A stretch of 64,000 bases of DNA from Flavobacterium panacis. Lineage in GTDB: Bacteria > Bacteroidota > Bacteroidia > Flavobacteriales > Flavobacteriaceae. Location of the stretch: positions 62,001 through 126,000 of the forward strand of contig NZ_JANKMS010000009.1 in assembly GCF_024649945.1 (NCBI RefSeq). Direction: 5' to 3'. The first letter of the stretch is position 1; each line of letters begins with the position of its first letter. Both the position numbers and the translations under genes were made by a program. The notes under the pieces are model-generated. The model ran no database searches, had not been told where the DNA came from, and worked only from the letters and a program-made list of their open reading frames with translations. Shown piece after piece: positions 15,316 through 28,878 of the stretch.

Positions 15316-15696
15316 ATGATAGATGAAATTACAAGATACTCAGACGCTGACTTAGCGGAGTTCAAAGAAATAATTCAAGCAAAAATTAAAAAAGCGCAAG
15401 AAGATCTTGATCTAATCAAGAGTGCTTATATGAATGATTTAAATAACGGAACAGACGATACCTCTCCAACTTTCAAAGCTTTTGAGGAAGGAAGTGAAAC
15501 AATGTCTAAAGAAGCAAACTCTCAATTGGCAATTCGTCAGGAGAAGTTTATCCGTGATTTAAAAAATGCGCTTTTCCGTGTAGAAAACAAAACTTACGGT
15601 ATTTGCAAAGTAACAGGTAAATTAATCAGCAAAGAAAGGCTTAAAATCGTTCCTCATGCAACAATGAGCATCGAAGCTAAAAACTTGCAAAGATAA
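15316..15696 (+). CDS. DksA/TraR-family protein lacking the zinc cysteines
   Basis: A 126-residue protein with the coiled-coil N-terminal half and the short C-terminal domain of the DksA/TraR family, which bind RNA polymerase through the secondary channel. The C-terminal motif reads YGICKVTGKLI...VPHATMSIEAK: only the first cysteine of the C4 zinc finger remains. This form occurs in other Bacteroidota, so it is likely a lineage feature. It is almost certainly cotranscribed with ileS and ends at a terminator at 15721-15749. Confidence 0.85.
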   Translation: MIDEITRYSDADLAEFKEIIQAKIKKAQEDLDLIKSAYMNDLNNGTDDTSPTFKAFEEGSETMSKEANSQLAIRQEKFIRDLKNALFRVENKTYGICKVTGKLISKERLKIVPHATMSIEAKNLQR

Positions 15697-15720
15697 AAAC
15701 ACGTAGAAATACGTAAGAGA

Positions 15721-15749
15721 AAAACGCTCCTTTTAGGGGCGTTTTTTTT
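15721..15749 (+). terminator. Rho-independent terminator after the ileS operon
   Basis: Stem aaaacgctcc/ggggcgtttt with a 6-base loop, followed by eight T. Confidence 0.88.
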
Positions 15750-15951
15750 GTTTAATGTTTAGTTGTTTTGTGGATGCTTAATGAAATTAGGGTTTGAAAG
15801 AAATTATTTATATATAGTCAAAATAAGCTTAATTGATGTAGCTTGTTTTTGTAAGAAGAGACTAGAGCTAATGATTTGAGTTTTAATGATTAAATGATAA
15901 TAAAAAAAACCGTCTTGTAAGGACGGTTTTTAAAATTTATAACTGATATAA

Positions 15952-16338
15952 TTACGCTAGGTTTTTTTCAACTTCAGCTTTATGCTTTCTTAATATAGCT
16001 CTTGTCATACCTAAATTTGCTTTTGAAGCATCGGCAGCAAGGTAGATCATGAATTTTTTGTTAGGAGAAATGTCGATAATGTGAATTTGATTCGATAAAG
16101 TAATCAAAATATCTTCGATGTCCTGGTTTAAATTTAAAGCTTTTACTGCGCTTAATTTTGCTTTTACAACTTCTAAGTTATAAGCGGCGGCAAGTTCTGG
16201 GTCAAAACTTGGATCGATAGTTAAATTTCCAAAACTTAATCCGGATTCAATTTCTGTTACAGCAACAGCAATAAAGCCGTTAACGTTGGTTTTCATTTCA
16301 TTTAAAAACACGTTTAAAAAATCATTACTCATAGTCAT
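15952..16338 (-). CDS. Roadblock/LC7-like protein B1 of duplicated module
   Basis: A 128-residue soluble protein (126 if it starts at the second ATG, 16332). Its order of elements (NVNGFIAVAVTEIESG, the DPELAAAYNLEVVKAK helix, IEDILITLSNQIHII, FMIYLAADASKANLGM) fits a small Roadblock/LC7-like fold. It closely matches the protein at 28504-28878 over its whole length (for example DPELA-AYNLEVVKAKL and DILITL-QIHIID are shared). It lies 27 bases downstream of its partner A1, probably in one operon. The function is unknown; relatives such as MglB act on small GTPases. Confidence 0.75.
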   Translation of the reverse strand: MTMSNDFLNVFLNEMKTNVNGFIAVAVTEIESGLSFGNLTIDPSFDPELAAAYNLEVVKAKLSAVKALNLNQDIEDILITLSNQIHIIDISPNKKFMIYLAADASKANLGMTRAILRKHKAEVEKNLA

Positions 16339-16365
16339 TTGGGTTTGTTTGTTAATAGATTTATG

Positions 16366-16722
16366 TTATTTCAATAGGGAATTTTTGCTTAATTCGGCAG
16401 ATACTTCTTCTGTTGAACGCATCAATAATGCAAGATTGCTTCCTTCTTTAGAAAAAGCGACAATGAAATTTGAACCGCTGATTTTGTTTCCAACGATAAC
16501 GCCTTCCGAACTTTTTAAGTACAATTGTTTTAAAGAGCCTTTTTCTAGATCAATTAAAAATTTTTCACTCATTGATAAGATGGCTGCACTCATTGCGGCG
16601 ATACTGTCTCCGTAGTCAAGGTTTAAGGAAGTGATTAATTTTCCTTTTCCGTTTAAGATTAATGCTGCAGTAGATTTGGTGCTGACAAGAAAGTCATTTA
16701 GGGTAGTTGTAATTTCATTCAT
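16366..16722 (-). CDS. Roadblock/LC7 domain protein A1 of duplicated module
   Basis: A 118-residue protein with a clear Roadblock/LC7 pattern: AALILNGKGKLITS, an AAMSAAILSMSE helix, GSLKQLYLKSSEGVIVG and NLALLMRSTEEV. I chose the start MNEITTT at 16722, because the upstream in-frame extension to 16827 is intergenic in composition and would overlap the -7 box at 16825-16832. Bacterial Roadblock proteins form homodimers that bind Ras-like GTPases, but none is encoded nearby. The paralogue is at 28158-28478. It is divergent from the lysine-rich gene at 16904. Confidence 0.8.
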   Translation of the reverse strand: MNEITTTLNDFLVSTKSTAALILNGKGKLITSLNLDYGDSIAAMSAAILSMSEKFLIDLEKGSLKQLYLKSSEGVIVGNKISGSNFIVAFSKEGSNLALLMRSTEEVSAELSKNSLLK

Positions 16723-16824
16723 GATTTTGTAGGATTTAGGGAGGAATGTTAAATTTAGTTTGTTTTGGTGTTTGGTTTGAAAATTAATTTTGAATCTTGC
16801 TAAACAAGTGTTAATTTTTCTTAA

Positions 16825-16832
16825 CAAATATA
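16825..16832 (-). promoter_or_regulatory. Putative -7 box of Roadblock module 1
   Basis: Minus strand TATATTTG (TAnnTTTG), about 100 bases before the A1 start. The -33 element is not evident. Confidence 0.4.
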
Positions 16833-16903
16833 AATTAAATTATGTATCATTGTAATACCAAATCATTAATAATTTAAATTATTTACTGTAAAAAACTTAC
16901 ATT

Positions 16904-17119
16904 ATGGCTAAAGTATTGAAATTCAAAGAAGTAAACTCTGATGTAGAGCGCAGAATGAAAGATTTTGAAAAGCTGCGTATCAAGTTCAAGGCTGATGTAA
17001 AAAAGGGTGAAGCGAAGAAGCTTGCTGCCGGAAAAGAAAGCAAAGGAATATTCAAGTCTATTTCAGATTTTTTCTCCGACAGTCCAAAAACACCAGCAAA
17101 AGCCGCTGTGAAAAAATAA
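16904..17119 (+). CDS. Small lysine-rich protein, divergent partner of Roadblock module 1
   Basis: A 71-residue basic protein with no signal peptide or membrane segment. The N-terminal half is a charged helix (SDVERRMKDFEKLRIKFK); the C-terminal half has GKESKGIFKSISDFFS, which could form an amphipathic helix, then an Ala/Lys tail. The same two elements occur in the 47-residue protein at 27726-27869, which likewise sits divergent from a Roadblock pair. Function unknown. A terminator follows at 17175-17200. Confidence 0.75.
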   Translation: MAKVLKFKEVNSDVERRMKDFEKLRIKFKADVKKGEAKKLAAGKESKGIFKSISDFFSDSPKTPAKAAVKK

Positions 17120-17174
17120 ACTATCTGGTTTAGATTAGCACTTAAAATCAGTTTAGTTTTATTAGAAAACAATT

Positions 17175-17200
17175 AACGCTCCCTTAGGAGCGTTTTTTTT
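17175..17200 (+). terminator. Rho-independent terminator
   Basis: Stem aacgctcc/ggagcgtt with the 4-base loop ctta and a run of eight T. Confidence 0.88.
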
Positions 17201-17211
17201 GATTAAATTGT

Positions 17212-17219
17212 TATTTTTG
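17212..17219 (+). promoter_or_regulatory. Putative lspA -7 box
   Basis: TATTTTTG matches TAnnTTTG, 20 bases before the lspA ATG, immediately after the upstream terminator. Confidence 0.5.
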
Positions 17220-17238
17220 CCCATCAAAAAATTATAAA

Positions 17239-17835
17239 ATGTCATTACGAAAAGCGTATTTCCTTATATTTCTAGTTTTAATTGTTGATCAGCTTTCTAA
17301 AATCTATGTCAAAACCAATTTTGTTCTTGGAGAAGAAGTGGTAATTTTTGACTGGTTTAGAATTCATTTTATTGAAAATGAAGGAATGGCCTGGGGAACA
17401 AAAATTCCTGGAGAATATGGAAAACTAATATTGACTGTTTTTAGAATCTTTGCGGTTTTCGGAATTGGCTGGTGGCTTTCTGATGTGGTAAAAAAACGTC
17501 AGTCAACTTATTTAATAGTGGCTATTGCATTGATCTTTGCAGGTGCAGCAGGAAATATTATCGATTCTGTTTTCTATGGAGTTATTTTTGATGACAGTAC
17601 TCATAATTTAGCAACTATCTTTTCTCCGGTTCCATACGGAACATGGTTTCACGGTTTGGTTGTAGATATGTTTTATTTTCCAATTTGGGAAGGTGAACTT
17701 CCAACTTGGCTTCCAGTTTTTGGAGGTAAACACTTCGCTTTTTTTAATGCTATTTTCAATGTTGCCGATATGGCGATCTCAACTGGAGTAGGAATACTTT
17801 TGGTTTTCAATAAAAAAGCATTTCCAAAACATTAA
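17239..17835 (+). CDS. lspA: Lipoprotein signal peptidase (signal peptidase II)
   Basis: A 198-residue inner membrane aspartic protease that cleaves lipoprotein signal peptides at the lipidated cysteine. Four membrane segments are visible. The catalytic aspartates are D143 (GLVVDMFYF) and D177 (FNVADMAIS). At 198 residues it is longer than the roughly 165 of E. coli; the extra residues lie in the loop between the third segment and the second catalytic motif (WEGELPTWLPVFGGKH). The order ileS, dksA-like, lspA is common in Bacteroidota; here Roadblock module 1 is inserted between the last two. Confidence 0.93.
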   Translation: MSLRKAYFLIFLVLIVDQLSKIYVKTNFVLGEEVVIFDWFRIHFIENEGMAWGTKIPGEYGKLILTVFRIFAVFGIGWWLSDVVKKRQSTYLIVAIALIFAGAAGNIIDSVFYGVIFDDSTHNLATIFSPVPYGTWFHGLVVDMFYFPIWEGELPTWLPVFGGKHFAFFNAIFNVADMAISTGVGILLVFNKKAFPKH

Positions 17836-26754: not shown

Positions 26755-27048
26755 GTGAGAAAAATAAATAACATATTTGAATTTTATAAAACGACACTGA
26801 TGGTGAACTTTTCATGTTCTTTGTTCGGATTGTTTTTAGGGAGTTTTAGTGGTTTTTTATTTATGTTGGCTACAATCGGTTTTCTTTTTAGTATTTTTTT
26901 TAAAGAGCGATACCGTAAAAATGAATATTTATTTTATTCGAATAACGGAATTTCAAAGAATAGATTGATATTTTTCAGTTTTTTATTGAATCTTTTTGTG
27001 GTTTTAATCTTGGCTCTATTAGCCGCATTTATTCTGAAATTATTTTGA
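26755..27048 (+). CDS. Small membrane protein, probable ABC transporter partner
   Basis: A 97-residue protein with a GTG start, 9 bases after the AddB-like gene. It has about three hydrophobic segments (LFGLFLGSFSGFLFMLATIGFLFSIFF and IFFSFLLNLFVVLILALLAAFIL) separated by a basic loop. No family is recognised. Its stop TGA overlaps the TTG start of the ABC ATPase gene (TTGA), so the two are probably translationally coupled and this could be the membrane part of a very small transporter. Confidence 0.6.
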   Translation: MRKINNIFEFYKTTLMVNFSCSLFGLFLGSFSGFLFMLATIGFLFSIFFKERYRKNEYLFYSNNGISKNRLIFFSFLLNLFVVLILALLAAFILKLF

Positions 27049-27719
27049 AAACACATGTAATTGAAGTTAGTGGTATTCGAAAAATGTTTGGCTCAAAAGC
27101 AATACTTTCAGATGTTTATTTGAAAATTGAAGTGGGTGAAATAATTGGTTTGTTTGGGAGAAATGGTTCAGGAAAATCAACCTTGCTAAAAAGCATATGT
27201 GGTCTTTTGCCTGTTTCTGATAAAAGTGTTTTTATTGACGGTGTCTCAAAGAATAAATCTTCCAATTTAATAAATGAAATTGCTTATCTGCATCAAGATC
27301 AATTCATTCCGAATCATTTGTCCGTAATTAGGACAATTCATTTGGGTATCGATAAACAAAAAACAGCTTTATTTTGTGAAGATGTTTTTATAAAACCTCT
27401 TTTAAATAGAAAAATTAGAAATCTTTCTGTTGGGGAATTAAGATATTTGCAGATAAAACTTGTTCTTTTTAATACATCAAAATTTGTTCTGCTTGATGAG
27501 CCTTTTAATGGCTTGTCTCCTAAAATGATCGAGGTCGTAACTGAATTAATTGAAGAAAATTCTAAAGAAAAAGGAATTCTGATTACAGATCATAACTATG
27601 AAAATGTTTTGAAAATTTCTACAGGTCTGCGATTGTTGAAAGAAGGTAAGTTGCAGATAATCAAAAACAAAGCCGAACTTTTTGAAAATGGTTATCTTGT
27701 AAGTCCGGCTGTTTTTTAA
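27045..27719 (+). CDS. ABC transporter ATP-binding protein
   Basis: A 224-residue ATPase. Walker A is GRNGSGKS near residue 38-45, the signature is LSVGE, and Walker B is KFVLLDEPFNGLSP, followed by the H-loop LITDHN. The order and length are normal for a single ABC domain, although the Q-loop to signature stretch is short. The start is TTG inside the stop of the upstream gene; no ATG fits. The cargo is unknown. It ends 6 bases from a small convergent gene. Confidence 0.85.
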   Translation: MKTHVIEVSGIRKMFGSKAILSDVYLKIEVGEIIGLFGRNGSGKSTLLKSICGLLPVSDKSVFIDGVSKNKSSNLINEIAYLHQDQFIPNHLSVIRTIHLGIDKQKTALFCEDVFIKPLLNRKIRNLSVGELRYLQIKLVLFNTSKFVLLDEPFNGLSPKMIEVVTELIEENSKEKGILITDHNYENVLKISTGLRLLKEGKLQIIKNKAELFENGYLVSPAVF

Positions 27720-27725
27720 GAGCTT

Positions 27726-27869
27726 TTAGCTGAATATTTTTTTGAAGAAACCCTTTTTAGATTTTTCTCCAGAAGTCGTATTATTGATGTGTCCGTTTTC
27801 AATACGAAATCTTCTAAACTTCTCCAGTTTTACATTGAGGTCAAAGCGTAATTCGTCAACAGTTTTCAT
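27726..27869 (-). CDS. Small basic protein, divergent partner of Roadblock module 2
   Basis: A 47-residue protein (MKTVDELRFDLNVKLEKF...SKKGFFKKIFS). It shares a charged helix (KLEKFRRFRI, compare RMKDFEKLRI) and a GEKSKKGFFKKI motif (compare GKESKGIFKSI) with the 71-residue protein at 16904-17119. A well-formed promoter lies directly upstream at 27886-27917, and the gene is divergent from a Roadblock pair, exactly as in module 1. It is too short for most gene finders. The function is unknown, and an amphipathic C-terminal helix is possible. Confidence 0.6.
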   Translation of the reverse strand: MKTVDELRFDLNVKLEKFRRFRIENGHINNTTSGEKSKKGFFKKIFS

Positions 27870-27885
27870 TTGGATGATTTTTTTG

Positions 27886-27917
27886 CAAAGCTATATAAAA
27901 ACTTTTTGCAAATGCAA
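27886..27917 (-). promoter_or_regulatory. Promoter of the 47-residue small protein gene
   Basis: On the minus strand TTG (27917-27915), a 21-base spacer and TAGCTTTG (27893-27886) fit the Bacteroidota consensus, giving a leader of roughly ten bases before the ATG at 27869. Confidence 0.55.
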
Positions 27918-28119
27918 CTTTCTGCAAATGTTAATTTTATAAATGAATTTTATGAAGCGAAATGTTACGATTTTAATGCAATATGTTTTTTATGTTAATT
28001 TTTTTTAAATATTTTCTTCAAAAAAATACGATTAATTAGATGATAAATAAAAGTCAGTCAGGAGGTTATATGTCTTCTTTTTTTAACAAGTGTTTATCGA
28101 GCAATTGCTATTATTGAAA

Positions 28120-28127
28120 TATCTTTG
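28120..28127 (+). promoter_or_regulatory. Putative -7 box of Roadblock module 2
   Basis: TATCTTTG matches TAnnTTTG, 30 bases before the start at 28158. No -33 TTG is found at ideal spacing. Confidence 0.45.
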
Positions 28128-28157
28128 CCGCTTCCAAAACATGACAAATAAAAGAAT

Positions 28158-28478
28158 ATGATTGATTTACAAACACTAGTAGAAGAGACTGGAGCAGAAT
28201 CTGGCTTGAGTTTTAATATTGATGGAATCTTAAACGAGTCTGTTAATTTAGAATACGACGGGAATGTTGCAGCAATGATCGGTATGATCTTAAAGATGTG
28301 CCTTGAAATGTCTGAAGACGTAAATAACGGTGATCTTAAACAAGTTATGATCAAAAACAACGACGGAATTGTTGTTGCGACCAAAAGCGAAGATGATAAC
28401 TGTATTGCGTTACTTTCTAAGGATTTAAGTAAAATGGGGTTGTTACTTCGTAAGATGGACTCTGTTTTTAATAATTAA
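28158..28478 (+). CDS. Roadblock/LC7-like protein A2 of duplicated module
   Basis: A 106-residue soluble protein. It follows the layout of the A1 protein (16366-16722): a short N-terminal helix, GLSFNIDGILNESVNLEYDGNV, the AAMIGMILKMCLEMSE helix, NGDLKQVMIKNNDGIVVA and a final helix. Similarity to A1 is moderate (for example AAM-ILKM and G-LKQ-I) and concentrated in the core. It is the first gene of a two-gene operon with B2, 25 bases apart. No GTPase gene is close. Confidence 0.7.
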   Translation: MIDLQTLVEETGAESGLSFNIDGILNESVNLEYDGNVAAMIGMILKMCLEMSEDVNNGDLKQVMIKNNDGIVVATKSEDDNCIALLSKDLSKMGLLLRKMDSVFNN

Positions 28479-28503
28479 TTTTAAAACCAAACATTTAATA
28501 AAC

Positions 28504-28878
28504 ATGTCAGATTTTTTACAAAATTTTCAAAACGATTTAAAGGAAAATGTTAACGGATTTATCGCTGTTTCTGTTACTGAAGTTGAAACAGGAATGTCTT
28601 ATTGCTCATTAACTGTAAGACCTGATTTTGATCCGGAATTGGCTTCTGCTTATAATTTAGAAGTAGTAAAAGCTAAATTGAATGCGCTTAGAGCTTTAGG
28701 GTTAAATCAAAAAATTAATGATATTTTAATTACATTGACAGATCAAATTCATATTATTGATGTTTCTGAAGATGGAAGATATTTTATCTATCTAGCTGTA
28801 GATTCTACAAAAGCTAATCTTGGTTTAACAAGAGCGACTTTGTCTAAATATAAAAAAGATATTACTTCAAAGTTATAA
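28504..28878 (+). CDS. Roadblock/LC7-like protein B2 of duplicated module
   Basis: A 124-residue paralogue of the protein at 15952-16338; most positions agree from NVNGFIAVSVTEVE through DPELASAYNLEVVKAKLNA, NDILITLTDQIHIID and KANLGLTRATL. B-type proteins are better conserved between the two modules than the A-type. The operon ends at a terminator at 28903-28942. Confidence 0.75.
   Translation: MSDFLQNFQNDLKENVNGFIAVSVTEVETGMSYCSLTVRPDFDPELASAYNLEVVKAKLNALRALGLNQKINDILITLTDQIHIIDVSEDGRYFIYLAVDSTKANLGLTRATLSKYKKDITSKL

Follow-up and report, generated by a model that had tools for sequence, protein, structure and literature searches.

What does a pair of Roadblock genes do in a Flavobacterium genome when it is accompanied by a tiny basic gene and has no Ras-like GTPase gene at its side? 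The window analyzed here, a 64,000-nucleotide stretch of a Flavobacterium panacis contig, raises this question twice. A small basic gene (S) next to an A-type and a B-type Roadblock-like gene had been predicted at two places in opposite orientation, and we confirmed this order at 15952-17119 (module 1) and 27726-28878 (module 2); the two copies of the unit fall within 13 kb, module 2 lying about 11 kb from module 1. In both of them, A and B are co-directional and S is divergent. Module 1 consists of B1 (15952-16338, minus strand, 128 aa), A1 upstream of it (16366-16722, minus strand, 118 aa counted from an ATG, the listed open reading frame (ORF) beginning further upstream at a TTG) and S1 (16904-17119, plus strand, 71 aa). 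Module 2 consists of S2 (27726-27869, minus strand, 47 aa), A2 (28158-28478, plus strand, 106 aa) and B2 (28504-28878, plus strand, 124 aa). A and B are spaced by 27 nt in module 1 and by 25 nt in module 2, and they are probably transcribed together. Two stem-loops that match a terminator consensus lie 3' of B1 (15905-15931, minus strand) and 3' of S1 (17175-17194, plus strand); five terminator-like stem-loops were found in 15650-17300, against 0.7 expected from shuffles. The promoter consensus is TTTG/TAnnTTTG, and TAnnTTTG boxes occur between the divergent genes, on both sides, in both modules. The full pattern was discounted as chance, with five occurrences in the window against 4.2 expected and none of the five between the divergent genes. 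The modules are flanked by LspA, an ABC ATPase, a hydrolase-like protein and a 126-aa ORF that matches no NCBIfam family; directly beside S2 is a small ABC transporter pair (26755-27719), with the ATPase at 27045-27719 and a 97-aa membrane-like ORF before it. The genome (5.96 Mb, 99.98% complete) contains a third copy of B without A or S (C11:797326-797697; L017:1501-1878), which adjoins a gene that by eye looks like a nitroreductase.

By sequence family, A is a Roadblock protein. A1 matches the Pfam model Robl_LC7 (PF03259) with 30.0 bits (E 4.4e-7) and A2 with 23.5 bits, just above the cut-off of 23, and the core that the two were expected to share is borne out at 35% identity over 93 aa. 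B1 and B2, likewise said to agree, are 63% identical over 123 aa. Neither has a Pfam or NCBIfam family match even at E 10, three distant B relatives have no Robl_LC7 match at E 1, and B and A show no significant profile-profile similarity (E 0.14); these searches rule out B as a recognized Pfam Roadblock and as a detectable profile relative of A. A sequence search of solved structures with B1 returned four matches (best E 0.048), none of them a Roadblock. The AlphaFold model of B1, calculated from an alignment of 40 sequences (pLDDT 94.3, pTM 0.87), shows the Roadblock order alpha-beta-beta-alpha-beta-beta-beta-alpha. Its best Foldseek match is Myxococcus xanthus MglB (E 3.9e-8, TM-score by query 0.85), with MglC second and Ragulator chains also among the matches. 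When A1 and B1 were read as one chain, both domains took the Roadblock order and the top structural matches included an Asgard Roadblock, MglB and MglC; the arrangement of the domains was not confident (pTM 0.49, low-confidence linker). Because Pfam matches A and not B, the original term "Roadblock-like" stands for A by sequence; for B it stands by predicted fold only and fails by sequence family. Since the B family is unrecognized by Robl_LC7, surveys built on that model would miss it. The nearest named relatives by B1 are in Flavobacterium species such as F. ginsenosidimutans, and module 1 is present in a strain named Flavobacterium johnsoniae, CI04.

S belongs to this unit and is kept beside A and B. 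The B model matches 163 distinct ORFs, of which 107 have A directly upstream and 105 have in addition at least 400 nt of upstream DNA; these 105 A-B pairs differ in B sequence, and their A has an ORF that begins with ATG. In 105/105 pairs by eye, and in 104/105 by a motif rule, an ORF of 42-106 aa diverges from A at a distance of 95-292 nt; the rule, like the tail pattern described below (for which S and PAS tails had been seen), was written post hoc after examples had been seen. The pairs comprise 69 of module-1 type, 25 of module-2 type and 11 others, and thus the independent number is far below 105. The same rule scores at 2 of 56 B genes without a recognized A, namely L116, where S is present and A is present but lacks an ATG, and L234, where the scoring ORF looks like chance; it scores at 11 of 365 other ORFs of at least 200 aa. 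Copies of the unit are found next to LspA, an ABC ATPase, DusB, LepA or a LysM gene, and the unit also occurs in Aestuariibaculum. At the level of genomes, 12 short S proteins used as queries gave strong matches (E <=1e-12) to short-type S in 63 of 398 Flavobacterium genomes. All 63 are within the 100 B-positive ones (two of which, G032 and G046, are B-positive by fragments of B only), and the 298 B-negative genomes have no strong short-type match; counted among the 63 is G139, with B and no A, whose S copy carries two stops. Weak matches (2e-4 to 0.01) occur in seven further genomes, three of them B-negative. A itself is present in 37 of 53 B-positive versus 0 of 17 B-negative Flavobacterium genomes examined. 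The prediction of a conserved three-gene unit is strongly supported, with both the co-occurrence of the small gene and the Roadblock fold decided in its favor; the role in polarity, gliding or signaling first suggested for it is hypothetical. Its spread in the Bacteroidota proved narrower than phylum-wide: the full unit was seen in Flavobacterium and one Aestuariibaculum, and another genus of the same family (G510) has an A-B pair without S.

S is also a real gene under selection, although it matches no Pfam or NCBIfam family. The dN/dS is 0.03-0.17 for S1 in five comparisons and 0.07-0.45 for S2 in three (L028 and L056 left out), and conservation together with dN/dS rules out a chance ORF. 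The likeness of S1 and S2 amounts to 28% identity over 46 aa, with E 0.001 for that single comparison, which is weak alone and strengthened by the conserved position. The 34 distinct short S proteins mostly end like KKGFFKKIFS, as S2 does; the S1 types have KGIFKSISDFFS plus a lysine-rich end; and at L196, L198, L200, L202 and L207, the middle of S is longer and acidic, and the protein terminates in GTSYFGRRRR or GTSFFGRRRR. Constant among these classes is an N-terminal stretch with the consensus L..KL.EFRKxRI, and the tail is variable. S2 matches the short-S model at E 3.9e-23, being itself in the model. Run among 4880 ORFs, the HMM of the 34 short S proteins has no significant reach to S1 (E at least 0.23) or to the RRRR type (E 0.02-1.3), and a common origin of the classes therefore rests on position and the N-terminal motif. 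A better-looking link between the classes was discounted because the training set included one truncated S1 (L133).

As the most likely reading, held tentatively, we propose that the unit is a membrane-held Roadblock scaffold without a GTPase of its own, in which S is the adaptor. It would encode a small scaffold at the inner membrane: A and B may form a dimer or a dimer of dimers, on which the N-terminal helix conserved in S may dock, as p18/LAMTOR1 and the C-terminal helix of RomR do elsewhere, and the C-terminal tail of S, which in the short types resembles the membrane-targeting end of MinD, may rest on the membrane. Such an assembly would bring clients to the membrane or a pole and would not act as a GAP for a dedicated small GTPase, and the two copies in the window, differing in the S tail, would be two versions of one platform. 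Decayed and partial loci bear on this reading from both sides. F. hydrophilum (L131) retains an intact B1 beside broken copies of A1 and S1, and G139, with B and no A, has just the S copy interrupted by two stops; we count both for it. Against it we count G006 (L212), where A2 has a stop, B2 is mostly deleted and S2 is intact, the S-less pair of G510, and a locus of G414 (L208:3666-5515) in which a further A, with an S of its own and no B, comes after B-A-S. As that G414 locus shows, S and A genes can occur together in the absence of B.

The tail of S was compared directly with that of MinD. KKGFFKKIFS of S2 resembles the Escherichia coli MinD end KKGFLKRLFGG, and the MinD C-terminal amphipathic helix binds membranes, as stated in the accessible part of PMC8155659. 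S2 shares with the MinD membrane-targeting sequence a short basic-aromatic C-terminal motif, and membrane binding of S is predicted; unlike MinD, S has no ATPase domain. The MinD-like tail pattern, defined post hoc, fits 30 of the 34 short S proteins, E. coli MinD and 1 of 696 other ORFs of at least 150 aa. S1 and the RRRR-type S have no such tail, which counts against the scaffold. Hydrophobic-moment shuffles gave p 0.5 for the S2 tail, 0.69 for the real MinD tail and 0.013 for the S1 tail; of the three, the S1 tail alone stands out as amphipathic, and we count this, too, against the scaffold. A DNA search of the F. panacis genome for the tail motif, with a pattern too narrow to include the genome's own two PAS tails, gave nine matches; S2 is the sole case in which the motif closes an ORF.

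The same kind of tail recurs in PAS proteins near B genes that lack A. At ten other Flavobacterium loci (L210, L236, L286-L292 and L295), a PAS protein of about 200 aa is encoded at a distance of 0.9-2.7 kb from a B gene without A; this protein mostly has a MinD-like end and is often accompanied by a Ppx/GppA-like protein and an MFS transporter (Pfam names are given for L292, L295 and the PAS proteins of the F. panacis genome). Around B without A, a set of MFS transporter, PAS protein, Ppx/GppA-like protein with a signal-peptide-like start and B recurs (L295, L290, L291, L287, L292, L289, L288 and L210), some loci lacking members. No PAS gene was seen at L211, or within the 1.5-kb flanks of L215, L222, L233, L219, L150 and L146. 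The tail pattern is found in 12 of at least 15 PAS proteins, that is, in 11 of the 14 caught by a filter and in one that the filter missed, a count from which missed proteins without the tail would escape. At E 1e-20, the PAS family is present in 48 of 53 B-positive versus 3 of 17 B-negative Flavobacterium genomes (Fisher 3e-8, with no correction for descent), and it is absent in 9 of 10 B-positive genomes outside Flavobacterium; the F. panacis genome has two such proteins, unlinked to B. This association is consistent with B acting alongside partners that have a membrane tail, or with a Roadblock-binding motif in common.

The latter option leads to an alternative that we consider rather unlikely, in which S is a true partner of A and B and not a membrane anchor. 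S would then be a soluble regulatory peptide or a basic nucleic-acid binder, and its aromatic tail a Roadblock-binding motif common to the PAS proteins. It gains from S1, lysine-rich and without a MinD-like end, from tails that differ by class (MinD-like, KGIFKSISDFFS, GTSYFGRRRR) and from the tail-sharing PAS proteins beside orphan B, which fit a Roadblock-binding motif equally with a membrane motif; it loses because the S2 tail closely matches the end of MinD and because the part that stays constant from one S class to another is the N-terminal helix and not the tail.

MglB-type Roadblock proteins are GAPs, and this speaks for a second alternative, unlikely in our judgment, that A and B still regulate, as GAP or co-regulator, a GTPase that is not MglA-like, such as one of translation or ribosome assembly or one diverged beyond the reach of our models, with S as an accessory like RomX or RomY. 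LepA, which flanks some units, is in line with this, and so are the distant relatives of B. Of 395 genomes from across the phylum, 26 have B relatives, 11 of these genomes belonging to other genera than Flavobacterium (G724 being marginal, E 0.009), and B relatives lie near an MglA-like GTPase, a classical Roadblock, a ParA-like ORF and a protoglobin at L182:1767-3875, L168:7544-11192 and L180:2264-6003. On one strand of G696, a classical Roadblock, a 225-aa protein, an MglA-like GTPase and B stand in succession; G433 has a response regulator, a classical Roadblock (Pfam 1.5e-14) and a GTPase (Ras 2.8e-8) in the vicinity of B; the surroundings of B in G801 include a ParA-like ORF, a Roadblock, a GTPase and a protoglobin; and G742 has genes similar to those of G801, minus the GTPase. 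Some of the gene names at these four loci were given by alignment to scanned ones or from a visible P-loop. Outside Flavobacterium, G510, G515, G587, G596, G638 and G723 have no match to the model of the MglA-like GTPase.

The B family appears in other company as well. A response regulator (L168:8680-9501, Pfam 2e-21) has a C-terminal part that matches the B model (E 1.7e-9), a receiver-Roadblock fusion, and in G596 (L170:6091-7230) a B relative is followed by two uncharacterized genes (101 and 150 aa) that have no Pfam match. G270 (L233, L238, L240) and G385 (L222, L234, L239), genomes of 3.1-3.5 Mb, carry four B paralogues in tandem; the arrays adjoin a gene that looks like elongation factor Ts, and one array runs to the contig end.

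The GTPase searches in Flavobacterium weigh against such a regulator. As first noted, no Ras-like GTPase gene adjoins either module, and the window contains none of the genome's Ras- or Roc-model matches; the searches of the remaining genome likewise yielded none of the MglA kind. A model of the MglA-like GTPase, built from the three sequences of G433, G696 and G801, all beside B relatives, matched 6 of 80 genomes at E 0.001, namely the three sources, G742 and two Flavobacterium genomes. These last two matches are weak and lie inside ORFs of 1191 and 547 aa, so none of the 70 Flavobacterium genomes examined gave a convincing match. The F. panacis genome has no match to this model at E 0.001, and its eight best Ras-model matches fall in seven ORFs named by NCBIfam as Era, MnmE, IF-2, LepA, HflX, Der and RF3; the ninth match is at E 1.6, and Roc matches past the best few are at E 0.1 or above. 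With these sequence models, no MglA-type GTPase was found in this genome. Given a GTPase beside B in some distant Bacteroidota, the B family is GTPase-linked in some lineages and found without this GTPase in Flavobacterium, which we infer to be a loss of the link rather than an original absence.

That S is just a divergent neighbor with no functional link to A and B is very improbable, since its position is kept in at least five flanking contexts, in three S classes and in another genus (Aestuariibaculum), and the 298 B-negative genomes lack a strong short-type match; in favor of such a mere neighbor stand the intact S2 beside broken A2 and B2 in G006 and the A-B pair without S in G510.

The membrane-held scaffold has partial parallels in known systems. 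M. xanthus also has two Roadblock paralogues in one genome, MglB and MglC, the two nearest structures to B1; in the accessible texts, MglC binds MglB at 2:4 (PMC7949163) and is itself bound by a helix of RomR, a third protein (PMC12719032). Unlike this system, the F. panacis genome is without a detected MglA-type GTPase, B1 is 12-13% identical to MglB, and the third protein is the 47-71 aa product of a divergent gene and no response regulator. Roadblock genes uncoupled from a small GTPase gene are common in bacteria and little studied: as far as the available text of a 2014 survey goes, 328 of 749 MglB homologues were of this kind and none was then characterized (PMC4316618). Orphan mglB alleles of Snodgrassella are linked to pilus-dependent motility and gut colonization in the portion available of PMC11112851, which also places an mglA elsewhere in that genome; here none was found, a small gene is dedicated to the pair, and B escapes the Robl_LC7 model. 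The Conservon (CvnA-D) of Streptomyces likewise has a Roadblock protein within a conserved small gene set (parts of PMC13343842 and PMC4316618); unlike this operon of histidine kinase, Roadblock, CvnC and GTPase, the present unit contains neither a histidine kinase nor a GTPase. In titles and abstract openings of the open-access literature, we found no Roadblock/LC7 work on Flavobacterium, F. johnsoniae or the Bacteroidota, and no such unit named.

A parallel by analogy is Ragulator (LAMTOR1-5), in which, according to the accessible part of PMC5696360, the membrane-anchored non-Roadblock protein p18 assembles Roadblock dimers. Roadblock proteins with a non-Roadblock partner would be common to both, the complex here being putative; the unit differs in having two and not four Roadblock genes, an S smaller than p18 and no Rag-like GTPase found. 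The Ragulator anchor is lipidated at its N-terminus and has a glycine at position 2. S1 starts with MAK and S2 with MKT, and neither has this glycine. A bolder form of the proposal, which we regard as doubtful, would make the unit a bacterial, GTPase-free counterpart of Ragulator, in which an adaptor of 40-70 aa with a fixed Roadblock-binding helix and exchangeable tails holds two paralogues at the membrane, and PAS proteins with a MinD-like tail attach to orphan B in a wider network within Flavobacterium.

Orphan Roadblock proteins are known already, and at least one of them, that of Snodgrassella, has a phenotype; thus, the unit described here is a variation on a known kind. Nevertheless, a Roadblock pair with its own tiny partner and no MglA-type GTPase found, in a genetically tractable group such as Flavobacterium, would show that the Roadblock fold can scaffold by itself.
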